64,000 bases of DNA, taken from assembly GCA_023257195.1 (NCBI GenBank), contig JALRCU010000003.1, positions 62,001 through 126,000 of the forward strand, given 5' to 3'. This document shows, in pieces, positions 596 through 59,231 of the stretch. Numbering within the stretch: the first letter of the stretch is position 1; the number at the start of each line of letters is the position of its first letter. The notes beneath the pieces were generated by a model. The model saw only the letters and a program-made list of their open reading frames with translations. It did no database searches and was not told the DNA's origin. The stretch comes from Holophagaceae bacterium. Its GTDB lineage: Bacteria > Acidobacteriota > Holophagae > Holophagales > Holophagaceae. The position numbers were made by a program, and so were the translations under genes.

Positions 596-644
596 ATATT
601 AAAATAGACATTACAATTTATGTCTAGTTATATAATTAGACATT
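587..644 (+). promoter_or_regulatory. Operator array and -10 element of the MerR/B12 regulator gene
   Basis: Four copies of one 6-bp half-site alternate in orientation with exact 16-bp spacing: TGTCTA at 589-594, TAGACA at 605-610, TGTCTA at 621-626 and TAGACA at 637-642. They form two inverted repeats of identical geometry (589-610 and 621-642), each with a 10-bp A/T-rich spacer. A perfect TATAAT (631-636) lies inside the second repeat. The last half-site abuts the Shine-Dalgarno AGGAG (645-649) of the gene starting at 655. Binding here would occlude the promoter, which suggests autorepression by the MerR/B12 regulator. No good -35 is seen at the normal distance. Confidence 0.75.
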
Positions 645-654
645 AGGAGAATCT

Positions 655-1512
655 ATGAATACTAGTCTACTTAGTATTGGAGATATTTGTACTGAGACCG
701 GCCTGTCCTCTGATGTGGTCCGAGTATGGGAGCGCCGCTATGGATTTCCAATGCCGGTTCGCTTGCCTTCCGGTCACCGCCGCTACCGGGCGGAAGATCT
801 CAATCGTCTCCGTCTTATTGCTGAAGCGGTCGCTTCCGGCCATCGACCTTCGATGGCGGTTCGTTCGAGTACAGATCAACTTGAGGCGATGGTTTTAAAG
901 AACGCCACTGCGGCCCCGAATCCTATACTCGATGAGTTGATGATCGCTACGCAAAATTCAAATTCAGAAAAGATCAAAAATCTTTTAGCCGAAGCGTTAT
1001 TCCAACAAGGCCTCCGAGATTTTGTCATTCATACGATTGCTCCCCTGCTTGAGCGCGTGGGCGTGGCTTGGGCAGAAGGTCGACTCGATATTCATCATGA
1101 AAAACTACTTACAGAAGTACTCGAAGATCTTCTTCGTAAACTCCGTAACGAATTGGATCAACAAGCCAAGGGTCCTCGGGAAGTGGTCTTGATGACGACT
1201 TTGCCTGGAGAGCGACATCGATTGGGTTTGCTGATGGCTGCACTAATCTATACCTACAAGGGCTACAAAACCGAAGTACTCGGCATGGATGTTCCTGTGG
1301 CCAACATCGCCAAATCAGCTCGGCAAGTGGGGGCCCACAAGGTTGCGGTCAGCTTGTCTATTCTCACTGCAGGCGAAAGTGTCCGCCGTCTCCTAAAAGA
1401 TCTGCAAGAACGCTTGCCCCAAGGTTGCGGTTTAGTTATCGGAGGCCAGGGGGCCTCAAGGACTCGCAAAGTTCAAGGGGTCGAGCGCATGACTCGACTA
1501 GAAGATATTTAA
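655..1512 (+). CDS. MerR-family regulator with B12-binding domain (CarH/LitR-like)
   Basis: This 285-residue protein has a MerR winged-helix domain (about residues 5-70; motif VWERRYGFP at 24-32 and the SGHRRY wing at 39-44). It is followed by a B12-binding helical bundle (about 90-165) and a Rossmann-like B12-binding domain (about 175-285). The GERHRLG motif at 185-191 carries the His (H188) expected as lower axial ligand. The upper-face signature of photosensory CarH proteins, W-x9-E-H, is present only as W139-x9-E149 followed by Lys150. Known relatives bind adenosylcobalamin and act as light-dependent repressors; whether this one senses light, B12 or neither cannot be read from sequence. 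AGGAG lies 5 bases before the ATG. The paired repeats at its own promoter suggest autoregulation. The next gene is 288 bp downstream. Confidence 0.85.
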   Translation: MNTSLLSIGDICTETGLSSDVVRVWERRYGFPMPVRLPSGHRRYRAEDLNRLRLIAEAVASGHRPSMAVRSSTDQLEAMVLKNATAAPNPILDELMIATQNSNSEKIKNLLAEALFQQGLRDFVIHTIAPLLERVGVAWAEGRLDIHHEKLLTEVLEDLLRKLRNELDQQAKGPREVVLMTTLPGERHRLGLLMAALIYTYKGYKTEVLGMDVPVANIAKSARQVGAHKVAVSLSILTAGESVRRLLKDLQERLPQGCGLVIGGQGASRTRKVQGVERMTRLEDI

Positions 1513-23852: not shown

Positions 23853-24191
23853 TTAGGGTCGACACCGGGCCCAATAATTTGCCTTTTCTTGGATACGTAT
23901 TTCCGTCACGCAGTGTCCGCGACTTAACAAATATTCACAAGCCCATTGGGATAACAGTTCAGCGGTAGGGTTACGTCCTTTGAATTCGGTCGCATCATTG
24001 AGAAGGGTGTAGTCAACGGATTGAATCCACGTATGAACATCGTCATGGATAGTACTTCGATCTTTTAACTGTTGTATTTCAAAAGAGGCCTCAATGTGCC
24101 AATTGTGACCATGTCGTGCTTCTGTAAAGCCTGGTAAATCATGAAAATGATCGGAGACAAAAGGATGACTGAGGGAAAAAATAATAGACAT
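23853..24191 (-). CDS. PTPS/QueD-family protein with ExxHGH motif (PTPS-III-like)
   Basis: The ATG at 24191 gives a 112-residue 6-pyruvoyl-tetrahydropterin-synthase fold; upstream in-frame starts (24209, 24218) lack ribosome sites. The zinc ligands are H9, H27 and H29 (HGHNWH). PTAELLSQWACEYL and the C-terminal catalytic-type Glu (RIQEKANYW) fit the family. The catalytic Cys of QueD/PTPS (CxxxHGH) is absent; Thr23 stands there and Glu24 gives ExxHGH. That motif is known for PTPS-III, which makes 6-hydroxymethyl-dihydropterin and can replace FolB in folate synthesis. A QueD (queuosine) role is the alternative. It is divergent from dsbD (66 bp). Confidence 0.7.
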   Translation of the reverse strand: MSIIFSLSHPFVSDHFHDLPGFTEARHGHNWHIEASFEIQQLKDRSTIHDDVHTWIQSVDYTLLNDATEFKGRNPTAELLSQWACEYLLSRGHCVTEIRIQEKANYWARCRP

Positions 24192-24257
24192 AACCCCATT
24201 GTAAATCATGAGTATCAAATAGAGAGTTCATCAATCTATGCTGTAAACTATAAAAAG

Positions 24258-25883
24258 ATGAAAAATCTATTAGTAGCCTCTTTTTTAATGGCCTCTAGTT
24301 TGTGGGGGCAGGTTTCGGTTGAGTTTCGCCCCGTAGAATCCATACGGATTCTACAGAATCAAGATCGCTTAGTTATTCAGATTCCGCCAAAAGCCCACCT
24401 CAAAACAACCTTCCTAAAAGTTGAAGCATTATCGTCACCCCAGGCCATCAGGATGGGTGAACTTCCTAAGGCGTCGGGGAAAGATGAGTTAGGTGACAAT
24501 ATTTATCGCCAGGAATTAGTTTGGCCAATCTTATTCAATACCACTGAGACCGATCTTGAGTTGACCGTGACCTATCAGCCCTGTACCGAGGGACCTGGGG
24601 GAATATGTTATCCACCCACCCAGCAAAAAATTAAAGTTCGTTCTGTAGCCTCTTCACCCACAGATTTTTCATTTCCATGGTGGTCTTTCTTGGGTATTTT
24701 CTTTGCAGGCCTTCTCGCTTCCCTTACGCCTTGCGTTTATCCTATGATTCCCATCACGATAGCCGTCATTGGAATACGCGATATTTCGAAGAAAAGAGCC
24801 GCTATTTTAACTTTAGCGCTCGTAATGGGCATGGCTATAATGTACTCATTACTAGGTATATTTGCTGTACTATCAGGAAACGTATTTGGATCTATCTTAG
24901 GATCAGCTAGTTTTATCATAGTTATTAGTATCTTATTTTTTATCTTTGGCCTATCCCTTTTGGGTGCTTTTGAATTTAGCATATCGACTTCCGCCCAAAA
25001 TCGACTCCAGTCATGGTCGACTCGCTCTGGAATCTGGGCCCCCTTTTTAACCGGAGTCGTCTTGGGCCCTTTATCGGCTCCTTGTATCGGCCCTATTTTG
25101 GGAACTATTTTAGTTAGTATTTCGAAGGGAAGTCTTTTCTTGGGTGCCGTAGAGTTATTTATCTTTGCACTCGGCATGGGAGTACCGTTCATGTTAGTCG
25201 GTATATTAGGGGTACAACTTCCTAAAAGTGGTGCTTGGCTCGAATTCCTGAAAAAAACTATGGGATTTATAGTTCTTGCCTTTGCCATATGGACATTGCG
25301 CACCATTCTCCCGGTTACCTGGACATTATGGCTATGCTTTACCCTAGTGATAGTAGCCATTTGGCTTTATCAAAAAATCCATATTGATTCTTCGCCTTTG
25401 AAACTTATTTATAGAATTATCTGTGTTTTGTTGGGTTTATTCGTAGTCTATTTTTCTCTTCGTCTGACCGAAGTCTACCTCAAGATCACCATTTTTAAAG
25501 GCAGTACCGCTCGCATTCTTGGACTAGATCAAAGCTTCAAACAAGAATGGATGAACCAAGATTTAGAGGCAGCTATAGAGGAGGCCAAGAAAAAAGATCG
25601 TCCTATTTTGGTAGATGTTTATGCTGATTGGTGTGCTGCCTGTTTCGAACTAGATCAAAGAACGTGGCCGGATGAAGCAGTTCGTGATTATGTTCGAAAA
25701 AATTATATTGCTATCCGAATCGATATGGACAAGATTCGCCCAGATCTCGCTAAGCGCTATCAAATTCTGGGCTACCCGACAATCTTAGTTTTAGATACCG
25801 AAGGACGAGAGATTAAGCGCATCTTGGGATATCAAAGTCCCCAAGAGATGCTTCGATTTATGAACCTGAATCAGGTAAAGTAG
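24258..25883 (+). CDS. dsbD: Thiol:disulfide interchange protein DsbD
   Basis: It carries reducing power from cytoplasmic thioredoxin across the inner membrane to periplasmic thiol proteins. The start at 24258 gives a signal peptide (MKNLLVASFLMASSLWGQ); an upstream in-frame start would place it in the middle. The 541 residues contain a periplasmic alpha domain with C109/C117, an eight-helix membrane domain with C159 (LTPCVYP) and C276 (APCIGP), and a C-terminal thioredoxin domain with C459-A-A-C462 (WCAAC). All six electron-transfer cysteines are present. The 3' end overlaps the convergent nth-fusion gene by 13 bp. Confidence 0.94.
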   Translation: MKNLLVASFLMASSLWGQVSVEFRPVESIRILQNQDRLVIQIPPKAHLKTTFLKVEALSSPQAIRMGELPKASGKDELGDNIYRQELVWPILFNTTETDLELTVTYQPCTEGPGGICYPPTQQKIKVRSVASSPTDFSFPWWSFLGIFFAGLLASLTPCVYPMIPITIAVIGIRDISKKRAAILTLALVMGMAIMYSLLGIFAVLSGNVFGSILGSASFIIVISILFFIFGLSLLGAFEFSISTSAQNRLQSWSTRSGIWAPFLTGVVLGPLSAPCIGPILGTILVSISKGSLFLGAVELFIFALGMGVPFMLVGILGVQLPKSGAWLEFLKKTMGFIVLAFAIWTLRTILPVTWTLWLCFTLVIVAIWLYQKIHIDSSPLKLIYRIICVLLGLFVVYFSLRLTEVYLKITIFKGSTARILGLDQSFKQEWMNQDLEAAIEEAKKKDRPILVDVYADWCAACFELDQRTWPDEAVRDYVRKNYIAIRIDMDKIRPDLAKRYQILGYPTILVLDTEGREIKRILGYQSPQEMLRFMNLNQVK

Positions 25884-27271
25884 TTTTGCTTCAAATATCG
25901 GAGGGCCGCAGGGGTTCGACTTAAGTACCAGGTCAAAAGTTCTCCGTTAATAATATCCACCTTGCTTTTCGGGAATAATTTCATCATTTCTTGTCGGTCT
26001 TTCTCGTTAAAAGGATAGGGTTCGGTTGGCAGAAGTATTAGATCAGGCTTTAGCTTTTCCATCTCTTTTGAGGTCAGCTTAGGGTAGTCCATAGATTTAT
26101 TGGTATCTCCAAGCACTTGGCCCCCTAAGGCCTTTAGTAATCCACCGCAGTAAGACTGCGAACCTGCCACAATCCATGGAGATTTCCAAACGAAAATAAG
26201 AACTTTGAGAGATTTGACTCGCCGGCCGAGAATACACCTTCTAAGTTCTGCGACAGACTTTTTGGATTTAGTTTCTCGATGAAGACGCTGCCCTAGGAGT
26301 TGATAAGCCTTAATACAACTCTTCAGGTCTGTCACATTCAGGACAAGAGTTGGAATTCGTGCTCCTTCCAATTCCTGAGCTATCTTTTTAGTATTCTCCG
26401 TGCGCTCGAGAATGACTAAGGTAGGTTTGAGTCTCAGAATATCCTTGAATCTTGGATTTTTAGTTCCTCCCACCCTCGGTATTTTTTCCAGCACTCTAGA
26501 TGGATGAATACAGTAGTTGGTTCTTCCCACTAAGGAGGAGGCTAATCCCCATTGACACATCAGTTCAGTAACAGAAGGGACAAGACTTATGAGTCGCTCA
26601 GATGTTTTTACCCATCGTCCCGTATGAGGATCTTTCTTCTCTCGAAGCCCCGTTGGGCACAGCGGCCGAAGGGAGCATTCATGACAAAGAGGACTTTGCG
26701 CTTTGCATATAGTTCGACCGTGAGTAATGAATTGATGATGCAGCAGAGTCCATGTTTCTCTTCTAAATAAGCGGCATAAATCTTTTTCGATATGGTCAGG
26801 ATTTTTAGAAGTACTTAACCCAAGTCGACGCGCCAATCTCCCAACATGGGTATCGACGGCCATGGCGGGTATTCCAAAAGCATTGCTGAGGACGACATTC
26901 GCGGTCTTTTTTCCTACTCCTGGTAGTTGAATCAGATCTTCGGATCGAGAAGGAATGTTCCCTTGATGAAAATGCACTACCCGTTGGGCCATAGCGATTA
27001 GAAATTTGGATTTATTTCTATAAAATCCAGTAGCTTTAATCAATTTCTGAAGATCTTTTATGTTGGCGGAGGCTAGAGTATCTAGAGTTGGATATTTTTT
27101 GAATACTGATGGCGTAGTGATATTGACTCGTGCATCTGTACACTGCGCACTCAATATGGTTGCAACGGTCAACTCATAAGCATTACGATGATCCAGCATG
27201 CATATGGCTTTGGGGTATAGTTTGTTGAGGTATGTCTGAATTTTTTTCAAATCATTAGGGGTTCGAGTCAT
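25871..27271 (-). CDS. Endonuclease III fused to a BtuF-like (cobalamin-binding type) domain
   Basis: One uninterrupted 466-residue frame joins two families. Residues 1-207 are a full endonuclease III: helix-hairpin-helix LPGVGKKTANVVL (116-128), catalytic K122 and D140 (VDTHVGR), and a 4Fe-4S loop C189-x6-C196-x2-C199-x5-C205. It removes oxidised pyrimidines from DNA. After a linker of about 18 residues, 226-466 is a periplasmic-binding-protein fold of the BtuF/helical-backbone-receptor type, with RLISLVPSVTELMCQWGL, VGGTKNPRF and LKPDLILLPTEPYPF. There is no signal peptide, so the BtuF-like half would be cytoplasmic. Signal-less single-domain relatives exist in this superfamily, but the joining to Nth is unusual. 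No frameshift is visible. Confidence 0.9.
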   Translation of the reverse strand: MTRTPNDLKKIQTYLNKLYPKAICMLDHRNAYELTVATILSAQCTDARVNITTPSVFKKYPTLDTLASANIKDLQKLIKATGFYRNKSKFLIAMAQRVVHFHQGNIPSRSEDLIQLPGVGKKTANVVLSNAFGIPAMAVDTHVGRLARRLGLSTSKNPDHIEKDLCRLFRRETWTLLHHQFITHGRTICKAQSPLCHECSLRPLCPTGLREKKDPHTGRWVKTSERLISLVPSVTELMCQWGLASSLVGRTNYCIHPSRVLEKIPRVGGTKNPRFKDILRLKPTLVILERTENTKKIAQELEGARIPTLVLNVTDLKSCIKAYQLLGQRLHRETKSKKSVAELRRCILGRRVKSLKVLIFVWKSPWIVAGSQSYCGGLLKALGGQVLGDTNKSMDYPKLTSKEMEKLKPDLILLPTEPYPFNEKDRQEMMKLFPKSKVDIINGELLTWYLSRTPAALRYLKQNYFT

Positions 27272-27330
27272 AAGTCTAGATTAGATTAATGGCATATAAC
27301 CGATTAGAATAGTTGAAGAAGGGAAATTCA

Positions 27331-28185
27331 TTGTCTAACCTAACTTTTAAACTCGATTGCCAAGAAACTTCAGAACATTACCGTCGGGTCATTGAGAAAA
27401 ATATTAAGCAATTAGGCCAATCTCCCGGCCTAGCTGTCATTTTGGGGTGCAGCGAAGAGGGGTGCATTACATATCATCGTTTCTTGATGAAAGATTGTCA
27501 GGATCTAGGTATTCGAGTTCAAGATATTGAGGTAGAAAGCGGTTTAGAGCTCGTAAAGACCGTCTCTCGCCTGAACCAAGATCCCAAGTATCAAGGTATT
27601 TTTATTTTTTATCCCCTTAAGTATCCAGGTCTCAAAGACGACGAAATTATGGATCTCTTGGACCCCGAAAAAGATATCGAAGGGCTTCATTCAACAAACA
27701 TTGGGTATCTTAATAAATTTCGAAAACGTATGGATGGATCAGATCATCGATGTATGACTCCGTGTACTGCTCGCGCCGTTGTGAAAACTCTTAAGCGAGG
27801 ATTTGGAGAAGAGTGGTTAGCAGGTAAAACAGTTTTGGTAATTAATGATTCCTTACGTATTGGAAGACCTCTTACAGCCATGATGGCTAATTTGAAAGCT
27901 ACTCCTATTTTGTGTCACCATAATACCTCGGTCAGTCACCTAGAAAAATTCACTGCTATGGCGGATGTAATTGTTTCAGCTGTTCCAGTACTCGGCTATC
28001 AAATTGAGACTTCTCTTATTCAGGACCATACACTTTGTTTTGACTTGTCAGGGCATGGAAACTTCAATTTCCAAGAACTAGAAGCCCGTGGGATCGCGCA
28101 CACTGATAATAGCCACAACAGTATTGGTAAAGTAACACGCATGATGGCGCTTTTGAATCTGACTTATGCAGCAGGTCTTAAATAA
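27331..28185 (+). CDS. FolD-superfamily methylene-THF dehydrogenase, yeast MTD1-like
   Basis: The start chosen is TTG at 27331, six bases after AAGAAGGGA; an earlier in-frame TTG (27313) lies inside that ribosome site. The 284 residues align with FolD but keep few catalytic motifs. At the YVxxK position it reads YHRFL, so the cyclohydrolase Lys is Leu. KDVDG is KDIEG, and the C-terminal PGGVGP is replaced by SIGKVTRMM. The pattern (YPLKYPG, KDIEGL, PCTARAVVKTLKR, GRPLTAMMANL, GKVT) resembles yeast Mtd1p, an NAD-dependent 5,10-methylene-THF dehydrogenase without cyclohydrolase activity. It abuts convergent kdsA. A genuine bifunctional FolD may be encoded elsewhere. Confidence 0.75.
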   Translation: MSNLTFKLDCQETSEHYRRVIEKNIKQLGQSPGLAVILGCSEEGCITYHRFLMKDCQDLGIRVQDIEVESGLELVKTVSRLNQDPKYQGIFIFYPLKYPGLKDDEIMDLLDPEKDIEGLHSTNIGYLNKFRKRMDGSDHRCMTPCTARAVVKTLKRGFGEEWLAGKTVLVINDSLRIGRPLTAMMANLKATPILCHHNTSVSHLEKFTAMADVIVSAVPVLGYQIETSLIQDHTLCFDLSGHGNFNFQELEARGIAHTDNSHNSIGKVTRMMALLNLTYAAGLK

Positions 28186-54362: not shown

Positions 54363-54411
54363 ACTTGCTTTTTATAAGTCAGGCCCTCAAGGTAAAGAAC
54401 TGACAGTTCAA

Positions 54412-54600
54412 TAACGTTTTCGATGTCGGGAAGCTGGTTAAAATCCAGCACTGCCCCGCAACGGTAAGCACCATGATTAGTATGCTCATGAGACTTAAAA
54501 ATTTTGGTCACTGAGTTTGACTCGGGAAGACCAAAGTTGGGAGTGTATTTCCCGTCGTGTGTAAGTCCGGAGACCGGTCGTAAACATCATGAAACCTAGC
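54412..54600 (+). ncRNA. Cobalamin (B12) riboswitch aptamer
   Basis: Conserved B12-box elements are visible in order: GGGAAGCTGG (54428-54437), a small hairpin with loop TTAAAAT, the core ACTGCCCCGCAACGGTAA (54450-54467) and AAGTCCGGAGACCGG (54563-54577). The closing stem is GATGT (54422-54426) with ACATC (54584-54588), extended by GTTT (54416-54419) with AAAC (54592-54595). It lies directly upstream of btuB. The aptamer would bind adenosylcobalamin and shut off the uptake operon when B12 is plentiful. It fills most of the 303-bp gap between rdgB and btuB. Confidence 0.93.
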
Positions 54601-54645
54601 CGGGGGGCTTGCGTCATTGGAATTTAGTTCCAACTCAAATCCTTG

Positions 54646-54660
54646 GCCTCATGCGGAGGC
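54646..54660 (+). promoter_or_regulatory. Shine-Dalgarno-sequestering hairpin of the B12 riboswitch
   Basis: GCCTC (54646-54650) pairs with GAGGC (54656-54660) around a 5-nt loop. The right arm overlaps the btuB Shine-Dalgarno GGAGG (54655-54659), six bases before the GTG start at 54666. There is no T-tract here, so control is most likely at translation initiation rather than termination. The switching partner strand was not identified. Confidence 0.65.
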
Positions 54661-54665
54661 ATGAA

Positions 54666-56696
54666 GTGAAATTCATATCCTTTTCTATCTTTTTAATGGT
54701 AACCCTATCTCTTGGTGGGCAAGAATCTGCCTTGCTTGAATCTGAGATCAAGAGGAGTCCCTCGGCCGTTGTATCCGTAATGGCCGAATTTGGTCAGGTT
54801 GACCTCAGAAAAACACCTAACCATATCCGTGTCCTCACTCAGGTAGATATTGAACGATATGGGGCCAAGACGCTCGGGGATTTATTAGCCTCAACAGTCC
54901 CCGGACAGGTTCTGTCGACGGGCGGACCTGGCTCTGCAGCGACCTTGCGTATTGGAGGAAGCCGGCCTGAGGATGTCACTGTTTTATTGAATGGTATTCG
55001 TATCAATGATGCCGCAGGGCTAGGAGCGGTGAATCCTAATAGCATTTCTCTCGTCGGGATCAAGCGTATAGAAATTATTGAAAGTAATGCCTCAACCCTT
55101 GTTGGATCAGGAGCCATGGGCGGTGTCGTTGCGCTTTATACAGATAACAATTCCCTGAAAGATGAAAAAAATAGTGTTGACGTCTCGCTCGGTAATCAAA
55201 CTTATCAAAACTTAAGATCTTCATTGCACACGCAATGGAAAGAAGGTTGGCTTCAAGGCTCTATTGATGCGAGTCGAGAGAGCCTCTCTACCCCGACTGC
55301 TCGAAGCTATCGAAGCATTGGTACTCACTTAGGGGTGGGTCAAGCCGTAGAAAATCACTCTTTCTTTCTGGACTATCGTAACTTTTATCAGGGAGTTCCT
55401 ATCCCTTATGTGAAAGTCGAATTAGGCCCTAGCCCTCGGCCCTCGTCAGATTACGATGCAAATCGAAATTTCCAACTTCGTAATGAACAATTGAGTCTTC
55501 GCTATGAAACAGAATTACCAAATTCCATCCCCCTTTCCTTCCATTTTGGATCTTCATCCCAATCGCGATTAGAACCCAAATATAACAACTCGGGGTATGA
55601 TCCGTATGAAAGTCGAAGAACAGAAGGTGGCCTGAAAGCTCGTTGGCAATGGTCAACAAATTTATCCTTCGCGTACCGGCTGGAATTATTTGAAGAACAA
55701 GCACAGACTCCTGCCTATCCTTTGGGTATAGATCAAGGCTCTGCCCATCACTTGTCTAATTCCATTGAGTCCCATTGGCAAGCTTCCGAAATCTTTCGTT
55801 TTCTTGTTACCTTTCGAGAAGATTACGATAAGCAACGCTTCACAACGGCTTCATCTGGATTTAGTATTGAACCCTTGACGTCTCGATCCCATACATGGCG
55901 TTTGGGGGTAACCTATCTTCCGAAAAAACAATGGATAGGCCAAGAGGAGAAATGGTTTATCTCTTTGGGCACAGGCTTCAGCCTGGCTCCACTAACCAGC
56001 AGCCTCTACCATGCCCAAAATATGCTAGATCCTAACAGCTACGGGTATGATCCGACTCGCTATACAAAGTTAGAAACCGAAGAAGGCTCTTACATTCATT
56101 TAGGTTATGAAACTTATTGGGATCGGTATCAACTTCAATTCAAATTATCTCGATTACACCATCGTAATCTTGTTTACTTTGATCTTAATTCTTTTGACTA
56201 CGCAAATGGACAGAACTTAAGAATTCAGAGTGCTGAAATGATTTTGACCTATCGTGGCGATGGTTGGAATGCGAGGGGATCTTATCGAAATCAAGAGGCT
56301 CGTCAACTCGACGTCCCCCAAGTACAGCAGTTAGTTACCAGCGCTTCTATCCGACGCCCCTTCAATATTCTTTCACTTGGGGTTGATCAACAATGGAAAG
56401 AAGTTCGTGCCAATCTTCAATGGAGCTATTCTGGAAGCCATTACGATAATTTTGGTGGTTTTCCAGCTAGGTTAGGCGCTTATCGCCACCCCTTTCAAGA
56501 TTTAAGTCTTGGGGTGTCTTGGTTGAAGAGTTCATCACTAGAGGTCACTCTTCGGGGACAGCATTTGTTACAGCCTAGGGTCACCCTCCAAGATTGGCTC
56601 TCTCGGAAATATGATTTTACGAATAATGCTCAGCAACTATATGGCTTTCCAGCCCAAGAACCGATTGTCAGCCTAGGCATAAAGTATCTTTTTTGA
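54666..56696 (+). CDS. btuB: BtuB-like TonB-dependent cobalamin receptor
   Basis: It imports cobalamin through the outer membrane. The start is GTG at 54666, set by GGAGG at 54655-54659; it gives a signal peptide (VKFISFSIFLMVTLSLGGQ). An upstream TTG frame entry lies in the riboswitch and is rejected. The 676 residues contain a plug (about 50-165) with LLASTVPGQVLSTGGPG, LRIGGSRPEDVTVLLNGIR and SGAMGGVVALYT, then a barrel ending LGIKYLF. The cobalamin identity rests on the riboswitch and the following BtuF, C and D genes. Confidence 0.93.
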   Translation: MKFISFSIFLMVTLSLGGQESALLESEIKRSPSAVVSVMAEFGQVDLRKTPNHIRVLTQVDIERYGAKTLGDLLASTVPGQVLSTGGPGSAATLRIGGSRPEDVTVLLNGIRINDAAGLGAVNPNSISLVGIKRIEIIESNASTLVGSGAMGGVVALYTDNNSLKDEKNSVDVSLGNQTYQNLRSSLHTQWKEGWLQGSIDASRESLSTPTARSYRSIGTHLGVGQAVENHSFFLDYRNFYQGVPIPYVKVELGPSPRPSSDYDANRNFQLRNEQLSLRYETELPNSIPLSFHFGSSSQSRLEPKYNNSGYDPYESRRTEGGLKARWQWSTNLSFAYRLELFEEQAQTPAYPLGIDQGSAHHLSNSIESHWQASEIFRFLVTFREDYDKQRFTTASSGFSIEPLTSRSHTWRLGVTYLPKKQWIGQEEKWFISLGTGFSLAPLTSSLYHAQNMLDPNSYGYDPTRYTKLETEEGSYIHLGYETYWDRYQLQFKLSRLHHRNLVYFDLNSFDYANGQNLRIQSAEMILTYRGDGWNARGSYRNQEARQLDVPQVQQLVTSASIRRPFNILSLGVDQQWKEVRANLQWSYSGSHYDNFGGFPARLGAYRHPFQDLSLGVSWLKSSSLEVTLRGQHLLQPRVTLQDWLSRKYDFTNNAQQLYGFPAQEPIVSLGIKYLF

Positions 56697-56707
56697 TGGA
56701 ATCCTCA

Positions 56708-57538
56708 ATGCGACTTATAGTTTTCAGCTTCTTTTGCAGCGCTTTACTTTGGTCTCAAGGACTCCCTCAGAGAATTGTGTCGCAAACCGTGGGGACGGAT
56801 GAATTATTAGTCGATCTTTGCCAGCCTCATCGAATTGCTGCCTTGAGCTTTTTATCGAGAAATCCGGCCTATTCGGACGTTGTCCTTGCGGCAGAAAGAT
56901 TTCCTCAAGTTCAGGATGGAAGTGCAGAGCAAATTCTCAAGTACAAACCGGATCTAGTCTTATTTACGAATTACTCAAGACCTGAACTAGTGGAACAAAT
57001 TAAAAGAGCAGGTATTCCCATTTTAGTCTTTGATCGCTTCAACACGCTCGAAGATGTTTATGGAAATATTCGTAAACTCGGTAAGGCGCTGGGTAGGGCT
57101 CAGGCTGCAGAGTCTCTTATTCGTCAATGCGAAGACCGAGTCTCTGTTCTTCAAAAACGCCTACAAGGAGTTATCCCTCGCCGTGTCATAGCCCCCTCTT
57201 CATATCATTACCTCGCGGGTCTCGAAACTACCTTTCAGGATTTATGTGATCATGCAGGCGCAATCAATGTAGCTGGAGAAGCCGGCCTACGGGGTCACAG
57301 CCCGACTCCTACTGAGGCTTTGATGCGATGGAGCGTCGATTATTTGGTCCTTTCAGACACTGGTGCTCGGGATAAATTAACTACCCTAAGAAAACATCCT
57401 TCTTTTGGGATGTTGCCAGCAACCCAAATGGGGCGAGTCGTTTGGATTCCCGAGGCGCTTCTGTCGAGTGTTACGCACCGTCGAATCCGAGGTTATGAGA
57501 TGATGGCTCAACAACTTTATCCCGAGTTATTCCGATGA
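56708..57538 (+). CDS. btuF: BtuF-like periplasmic cobalamin-binding protein
   Basis: A substrate-binding protein that passes B12 to the BtuCD transporter. The start at 56708 (GGA upstream) gives MRLIVFSFFCSALLWSQG, a signal peptide; an ATG at 56696 overlapping the btuB stop is an alternative. The 276 residues have the helical-backbone receptor layout: PQRIVSQTVGTDELL, LKYKPDLVLFTN, and a mature domain ending RGYEMMAQQLYPELF. Unlike the BtuF-like domain fused to endonuclease III, this one is exported, so the two proteins act in different compartments. Confidence 0.88.
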   Translation: MRLIVFSFFCSALLWSQGLPQRIVSQTVGTDELLVDLCQPHRIAALSFLSRNPAYSDVVLAAERFPQVQDGSAEQILKYKPDLVLFTNYSRPELVEQIKRAGIPILVFDRFNTLEDVYGNIRKLGKALGRAQAAESLIRQCEDRVSVLQKRLQGVIPRRVIAPSSYHYLAGLETTFQDLCDHAGAINVAGEAGLRGHSPTPTEALMRWSVDYLVLSDTGARDKLTTLRKHPSFGMLPATQMGRVVWIPEALLSSVTHRRIRGYEMMAQQLYPELFR

Positions 57539-58512
57539 AAAAATATCCACTTATCCTAGGATTGATCACCCTTGCTTTGAGCATCTTATTCTTTGCGTCG
57601 ATTATTTGGGGGGAAGTCTACCTATCTTTTCCAGAATTATGGGATGGGCTAAGACGTACCGATCCGGTGGTGCAAAGTATTCTTTGGAATATTCGTCTTC
57701 CTCGAGCATTAGTGGCAATGGCGGTTGGCGCCAGCCTTTCAATTTCGGGTTTAATGATGCAGGCCTATTTCAAAAATCCTCTAGCCTCTCCCGGCTTGCT
57801 TGGGGTTTCGAGCGGTGGTGCTCTTGGGGCTGTTCTCTATATTGGATACGGTTCTAACTGGCTTGGAATGTGGGGACTCCCCGGTGCTTCGATGGCCGGA
57901 GCTTTCTTGGCTACATTCTTGGTCCTATCGCTCTCAGAGATTGGTCTTGGAACTCAGAGATTGCTTCTAGCGGGAATTGCTCTCAATGCCCTTTTGGGAG
58001 CCGCCACTAGCTTTGTTTTATCGCTCTCTGTTTCCTCATTTGAACGCTCAGGTCAAATACTATTTTGGCTCTTGGGTAGTCTTGAAGATCGGACATGGGA
58101 ACACGTATGGGTGAGCTTGCCACTCACCGTGGTTCTTGGTTTTTTTATTACGTCCTTAGGTTCACCCATGAATCTTTTAAGTTTAGGTGAATCTGGAGCG
58201 CAAAGTTTAGGTGTCAATGTTCGTCAATTTCGCTGGAAGATGATTATTCTTTCCACTCTCCTGACGGCCGTAGCTACGGCTGTAGCGGGCGTGATAGGTT
58301 TTGTGGGTCTCATTATCCCCCATATTTTCAGACTTCTTTTGGGCCCTGATCATAAACGACTGATTCCTTGTTGTCTCATCGGCGGTGCAGCGTTTCTTCT
58401 TGGATGTGATCTGATATCCCGAACATTGAATATAGGTTTGCGGGTTGGAGTGATCACTTCATTGATTGGGGGCCCTTTCTTTCTTTGGCTTCTCCAAAAG
58501 CGTGCCGTATGA
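57535..58512 (+). CDS. btuC: BtuC/FecCD-family ABC permease
   Basis: The inner-membrane permease of the B12 ABC importer. The 325 residues form about ten transmembrane helices with the FecCD signature FKNPLASPGLLGVSSGGALGA and the C-terminal FVGLIIPHIFRLLLGPDHKRL that contacts the ATPase. It overlaps btuF (ATGA) and btuD (ATGA), so translation is coupled throughout. Confidence 0.93.
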   Translation: MKKYPLILGLITLALSILFFASIIWGEVYLSFPELWDGLRRTDPVVQSILWNIRLPRALVAMAVGASLSISGLMMQAYFKNPLASPGLLGVSSGGALGAVLYIGYGSNWLGMWGLPGASMAGAFLATFLVLSLSEIGLGTQRLLLAGIALNALLGAATSFVLSLSVSSFERSGQILFWLLGSLEDRTWEHVWVSLPLTVVLGFFITSLGSPMNLLSLGESGAQSLGVNVRQFRWKMIILSTLLTAVATAVAGVIGFVGLIIPHIFRLLLGPDHKRLIPCCLIGGAAFLLGCDLISRTLNIGLRVGVITSLIGGPFFLWLLQKRAV

Positions 58513-59231
58513 GTTCCGTTCTCAAAACAAAAGATCTCCAGGTTGTACATCGTTTAAATCCGATGTCTTTGACCTTTCAATCCGGCTCACTAATCGCCAT
58601 TATCGGACCAAATGGCTCGGGTAAATCCACATTTCTCCAGGCGATTTCAGGCTTGCTCTCCTATGACGGAGAGGTCATCTGGAACGGATTTAATCTCAAT
58701 GATATTCCGGTCTATCAGCGAGCTCAACAATTGGCTTGGGTTGGCCCAGAGCCTAATTTTCAATTTCCTTTCACCGTTCAGGAAGTTCTTCGTATGGGTC
58801 GTTTCGCTCGGGGTGAGGATAGTCACAATCTAGAGCCTTACTTAAAGGACATGGACTTAGTAAGTCTAGCTGATCGCCCGATTACCCAAATTAGTACAGG
58901 GGAAAAGCAACGCACTTTATTAGCGCGCGCCATGGTGACTCAAGCTCCTATTCAATGTTGGGACGAACCCCTTTCATCTCTTGATATTCGGCATCAGTTA
59001 GAAATTCTGATGAAGGCAAGAGCGATGGCCGATGCAGGTGCTACTATCTTGATTTCACTTCATGACTTAAGAGTTGCTCATTGTATGGATCAAGTTGTTT
59101 TACTCGATCAAGGAAATTTGATAGCCTGCGGATCGCCAGCCCAAGTCCTTACCCCGGCCTTACTCCGACAAGTCTTTGGTGTGCTCTCTCGTGAATCGAT
59201 GGGCTTAGTTCTTGAACTCCCCCCTAAATAG
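58509..59231 (+). CDS. btuD: BtuD-like ABC transporter ATPase
   Basis: The ATPase of the B12 importer. The start at 58509 overlaps the btuC stop (ATGA); an upstream in-frame start lies inside btuC. The 240 residues contain Walker A GPNGSGKST, Q-loop WVGPEP, Walker B CWDEPLSSLD and switch His in SLHDL. The signature, usually LSGGQ/E, reads ISTGE, a permissible variant. Last gene of the riboswitch-controlled operon; recA follows after 146 bp. Confidence 0.92.
   Translation: MSSVLKTKDLQVVHRLNPMSLTFQSGSLIAIIGPNGSGKSTFLQAISGLLSYDGEVIWNGFNLNDIPVYQRAQQLAWVGPEPNFQFPFTVQEVLRMGRFARGEDSHNLEPYLKDMDLVSLADRPITQISTGEKQRTLLARAMVTQAPIQCWDEPLSSLDIRHQLEILMKARAMADAGATILISLHDLRVAHCMDQVVLLDQGNLIACGSPAQVLTPALLRQVFGVLSRESMGLVLELPPK

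Follow-up and report, generated by a model that had tools for sequence, protein, structure and literature searches.

We identified, in the window (the whole 64,000-nucleotide stretch of Holophagaceae DNA analysed here), a gene whose single reading frame joins endonuclease III (Nth) to a domain of the BtuF/TroA type. No paper joining these two families was found in the open-licence PMC literature, and the architecture, which is real, is apparently undescribed there. In the reading that we prefer, and to which we give an even chance of being right, this is a fixed two-domain protein in which Nth carries a ligand-binding C-terminal domain that has turned basic and serves as an accessory module on the DNA side. 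The fusion places a stable domain architecture on a core DNA-repair enzyme, and it provides a way into a large family of BtuF-like proteins of the cytosol that is uncharacterised.

An endonuclease III and a BtuF-like domain share one reading frame

The fused gene lies on the minus strand (25871-27271), with its ATG at 27271 and its stop at 25871, and encodes 466 amino acids. Residues 1-212 (26636-27271) form the Nth domain, as delimited by TIGR01083, invariant residues and Foldseek. A linker of about 13 residues in the window genus follows (residues 213-225; 26597-26635), and the TroA/BtuF-like ligand-binding domain, delimited by NF038402, AlphaFold2 and Foldseek, occupies residues 226-466 (25874-26596). 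In free-living relatives the linker is long and of low complexity, and it is variable in most genera outside the window genus. A convergent gene for a DsbD-like thiol:disulfide interchange protein (24141-25883, plus strand) overlaps the end of the fused gene by 13 bp, and a divergent folD-like gene (27313-28185, plus strand) lies 41 bp from its start; both were named from their translations, and both are retained beside the fusion in several relatives.

The N-terminal half has the features of an ordinary endonuclease III. It matches the NCBIfam equivalog TIGR01083 over residues 9-196 (E 5e-73; 244.8 bits, where the cut-off is 211.7) and contains the Pfam HHH motif. The catalytic K122 and D140 and the Fe-S site C-X6-C-X2-C-X5-C (C189, C196, C199 and C205) are invariant across 24 aligned fusions, and Foldseek matched this half to the Nth-DNA complexes 1orp and 1orn at a target-normalised TM of about 0.80. 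The fused protein thus shares with endonuclease III (TIGR01083; 1orn/1p59, 2abk) the whole domain, the catalytic lysine and aspartate, the four cysteines and the fold, and differs in its C-terminal 240-residue ligand-binding domain. From these features we infer that the N-terminal half is an oxidised-pyrimidine glycosylase/AP lyase. The second glycosylase match in the window genome is distant and MutY-like, so the fused gene is apparently the cell's sole Nth.

The C-terminal domain is internal to the frame, and the fused protein has no signal peptide. An internal start yielding a free C-terminal domain was considered and rejected, as the linker holds no in-frame ATG and the next in-frame methionine is M240. 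AlphaFold2 modelled the fused protein with a mean pLDDT of 91.2 and a pTM of 0.65; each domain is therefore predicted with confidence, but their placement relative to one another is not. The first-pass annotation of this DNA, made from the letters, had called an intact Nth with K122, D140 and four Fe-S cysteines, a full BtuF-like domain at residues 226-466, the lack of a signal peptide and a true fusion of the two, all of which our analysis bears out.

The fusion recurs across Holophagaceae and both halves are constrained

Both halves occur in one frame in 60 of the 77 genomes of Holophagaceae (Acidobacteriota), representing 7 of 11 genera, a count tallied by shared frame, with 24 frames extracted and read individually; ORF calls in the high-GC loci are rough. 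Eight of the remaining genomes encode Nth alone, two have the gene split by contig ends and seven, several of them incomplete assemblies, have no full match. The fused protein has counterparts in two congeners, 80% and 71% identical to it. Misassembly or a lost stop codon merging two genes is accordingly almost inconceivable to us: we found nothing in its favour, the 60 genomes include named Geothrix isolates, and congeners share the flanking genes of the fused gene. A frameshift is rejected on the same recurrence.

Outside the family, the best 80 of 590 confirmed stretches included no fusion, and the part of the phylum that was sampled likewise had none. Within it, we saw no re-splitting of the fusion into two genes, and a separate C-domain gene was not found in the eight genomes with Nth alone. 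In a tree with the standalone domains, the fused C-terminal domains group in a single clade (SH-aLRT 99). On the Nth tree the fused or unfused state takes only two changes, though support is weak at several forks and the branch to the window genus is long. The simplest reading of these trees is a single gain in or near the Holophagaceae ancestor, followed by losses.

Pairwise comparison of the fused genes of G000 and G002 (NG86) gave dN 0.095 and dS 1.03 for Nth (dN/dS of about 0.09), and dN 0.12 and dS 1.66 for the C-terminal domain (about 0.07), ratios that are approximate because synonymous sites are close to saturation. Purifying selection acts on both halves, even in the 1.2-Mb window genome (97% complete, 56 contigs). 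That the C-terminal domain is held under constraint in so strongly reduced a genome argues for its usefulness.

The C-terminal domain belongs to a widespread signal-less family

The C-terminal half matches NF038402 (helical backbone metal receptor, TroA-like) over residues 226-449 with E 1e-39 and 136 bits, against a cut-off of 30 bits, and matches Pfam Peripla_BP_2 with E 9e-16. Its predicted structure has the bilobal TroA/BtuF fold: in Foldseek the target-normalised TM was 0.80 against E. coli BtuF (1n2z) and 0.86 against 5m2q, HmuT and BtuF structures together spanned 0.78-0.86, and HmuT was the best match for this half. The ligand-binding fold proposed by the first-pass annotation was thus recovered in the model.

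Standalone homologues that by inspection lack a signal peptide, in frames of 234-342 residues, occur in other Acidobacteriota and also in Bacteroidota, Proteobacteria, Calditrichota, Chloroflexota and others. By its sequence, then, the C-terminal domain is a member of a widespread signal-less standalone family and not an escaped periplasmic protein. The earlier premise of export as the norm for such domains has to be corrected, since membership of this broad family means that cytosolic BtuF-like domains are not unusual in themselves; what is unusual is the link to Nth.

Across 64 sequences (21 fused and 43 standalone C-terminal domains) the residues S229, P232, S233, C254, P257, K271, P283, E292, N293, W362, P365, P418, F421, G443 and W448 are invariant, and they probably line the cleft. 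Fused and standalone members share the motifs SLVPS, (F/Y)CxxP, GGTK, EN, WxxP, EPxxF and GxxxxW and the lack of export. They differ in that the fused domain sits on Nth and is basic where its relatives are acidic, and in that the fused clade has E289, P415 and L450 where standalone relatives have N, S and G; W241 likewise sets the fused clade apart.

We compared the cleft with that of E. coli BtuF, in which Y50, W66, F162, F168 and W196 contact cobalamin (PMC5662663). Two of these five positions are aromatic in the alignment, Y50 corresponding to Y253 and W196 to Y396. The other three are replaced: W66 by T270, which precedes the invariant K271, F162 by V361 and F168 by I367, with W362 and W366 one residue off. 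The comparison of aromatic residues proposed in the first-pass annotation is therefore mixed, and the partly kept set would make cobalamin possible while the cleft gives no pointer to it. Two BtuF glutamates dock to arginines of BtuC (PMC3741162); their positions are K276 and K402 here and are variable across the fused set, and this lack of conservation is consistent with a non-transport role.

A plain BtuF identity was rejected. The domain scores 36.1 bits against the BtuF equivalog NF002894 (cut-off 234 bits), and it lacks both the export signal and the docking glutamates. It shares with BtuF (1n2z) the fold and the two aromatic positions and differs in its lack of a signal peptide and in the three replaced contacts; moreover, the window genome has a separate, riboswitch-controlled btuF. 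Likeness to the heme-binding proteins HmuT and IsdE (3md9, 2q8p) is likewise one of fold, as the domain is not exported and its 60.7 bits against the IsdE equivalog TIGR03659 fall below the cut-off of 298.65 bits. A second, distinct signal-less BtuF-like family, with the motif VG(R/V)(S/T)HECD(F/Y)P, is encoded near the first at two loci (L064, 2748-3686; L071, 1-525; both minus strand).

Cobalamin as a lead for the ligand

A corrinoid or cobalamin type of ligand is our tentative first guess for the C-terminal domain, and we treat cobalamin as a lead rather than a result. Of 73 named standalone loci, 11 have a gene for AdoCbl-dependent IcmF in their flanks, adjacent in several; these loci come from three phyla (Flavobacteria, Gammaproteobacteria and Calditrichota). 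At one acidobacterial locus (L071, 5097-8525) the genes run BtuF, C domain, BtuC and BtuD, with the signal-less relative directly after an exported BtuF-like gene. The window genome encodes IcmF, MetH, a mutase small subunit and a CarH-like regulator.

Several simple links to cobalamin were considered and rejected. A strict partnership with IcmF fails, as none of the 20 standalone-positive Acidobacteriota sampled outside Holophagaceae showed co-occurrence of the two, and Holophagaceae without the fusion may have IcmF. A search of 25 loci found no riboswitch that would control either the fused or the standalone genes; there is no cobalamin riboswitch ahead of the fused gene in the window or at eight other Holophagaceae loci. 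Nor does B12 dependence explain retention of the domain, as the cobalamin riboswitch and Met_synt_B12 occur both with and without the fusion.

Some further observations concern cobalamin in these genomes more generally. The window holds a complete B12 uptake operon (54404-59231, plus strand) in a genome of 1.2 Mb: a cobalamin riboswitch (54404-54596; Rfam RF00174, 80.6 bits) precedes btuB, the first gene of a btuB-btuF-btuC-btuD-like run (54609-59231), with its own exported BtuF at 56693-57538. At 640-1509 (plus strand) the window encodes a CarH-like regulator of the MerR type that contains a B12-binding domain and may respond to light or B12. The reduced genome retains the fused isobutyryl-CoA mutase IcmF and MetH, both cobalamin-dependent (G000:C4:20597-21997, locus L175, and G000:C44, locus L174). 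Two Holophagaceae genomes of one genus, G018 and G010, both lacking the fusion, have nine and four cobalamin riboswitches, compared with one or two in others.

The fused C-terminal domain has become basic

Mean net charge of the C-terminal domain is +6.1 (pI 9.0) in fused proteins and -4.6 (pI 6.0) in standalone ones, with a mean of -6.7 in the acidobacterial standalone domains. Net charge is positive in 18 of 21 fused but only 5 of 43 standalone domains. The p values for the shift are about 1e-8 but ignore kinship, the fused set being one clade. Since the shift stems from one clade, it counts as one evolutionary event. A basic stretch (residues 340-358; 26198-26254, minus strand) is specific to the fused clade by comparison with standalone relatives; its mean net charge is +5.0 in fused and +1.3 in standalone domains.

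In the window genus net charge is +18 to +21 for the C-terminal domain and +13 to +17 for the Nth half. Samples of soluble proteins from genomes with and without the fusion are all close to neutral: the median charge per 237 residues is -0.6 for free-living Holophagaceae, -0.1 for the window genus and -1.8 for others, and in the window genus only 3% of the sampled soluble proteins have +6 or more on that scale. The composition of the domain suggests adaptation to sitting beside DNA, which may mean contact, gating or just a loss of repulsion from DNA. The first-pass annotation had offered a ligand sensor, a switch or a structural dock as possible roles; the charge shift lends some support to a dock or an accessory DNA-side role.

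What the fusion may do

We propose that the C-terminal half derives from the signal-less NF038402 family and was joined to Nth in a single event, in or near the Holophagaceae ancestor. Because the conserved residues of that family are kept, it most likely still binds a ligand, probably a small chelate or cofactor. Its basic surface would let it rest on DNA, or close to it, next to Nth, making the domain an accessory DNA-side module, perhaps tuned by its ligand. The pTM of 0.65 and the variable, low-complexity linker outside the window genus count against this proposal, as they suit loosely tethered, independent domains. They favour instead two independent proteins in one chain, with the C-terminal domain doing the cytosolic job of its standalone relatives, which would be to carry or buffer a corrinoid or metal chelate, and the charge change only sparing Nth on DNA. 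Such a passive arrangement is a possibility that we take seriously but hold to be somewhat improbable. It fits the retention of all family motifs, the fact that fused genomes show no further standalone copy (E <= 1e-15) and the lack of nth among the neighbours of the 73 named standalone loci. It sits poorly with a fusion that is never seen re-split, with a linker of so few residues in the window genus and with a charge shift there that runs far past neutrality.

A further reading couples the two halves: the C-terminal domain would sense cobalamin, heme or an iron chelate and switch Nth activity or the redox state of its Fe-S cluster. An intact ligand-binding fold and an intact Fe-S enzyme on one chain, retained across Holophagaceae, together with the fused-clade residues E289, P415 and L450, are compatible with ligand-gated repair. 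Nothing in the analysis points to coupling, however, and the C-terminal domain has been lost repeatedly, or is at least absent in several genera, with Nth kept; we judge this reading unlikely. Equally doubtful is its family-wide form, cofactor-gated DNA repair in which a corrinoid, tetrapyrrole or iron chelate held in a BtuF-type clamp sets the glycosylase's engagement of DNA or its activity. Were ligand and repair activity coupled, this would be the first such link known to us; if they are not, the fusion exemplifies an added domain that has altered its charge to suit the DNA-acting enzyme that carries it.

Gene neighbourhoods

In a Pfam survey of neighbouring genes, the neighbours were mostly lineage-specific (PALP/CBS, AroA, PyrF), and no DNA-repair family was among the 25 most frequent. 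At 14 of 73 loci (L107, L115, L134-L136, L145, L148, L149, L151, L154, L155, L158, L169 and L172) the standalone signal-less gene is closely preceded by a cystathionine-beta-synthase-like gene.
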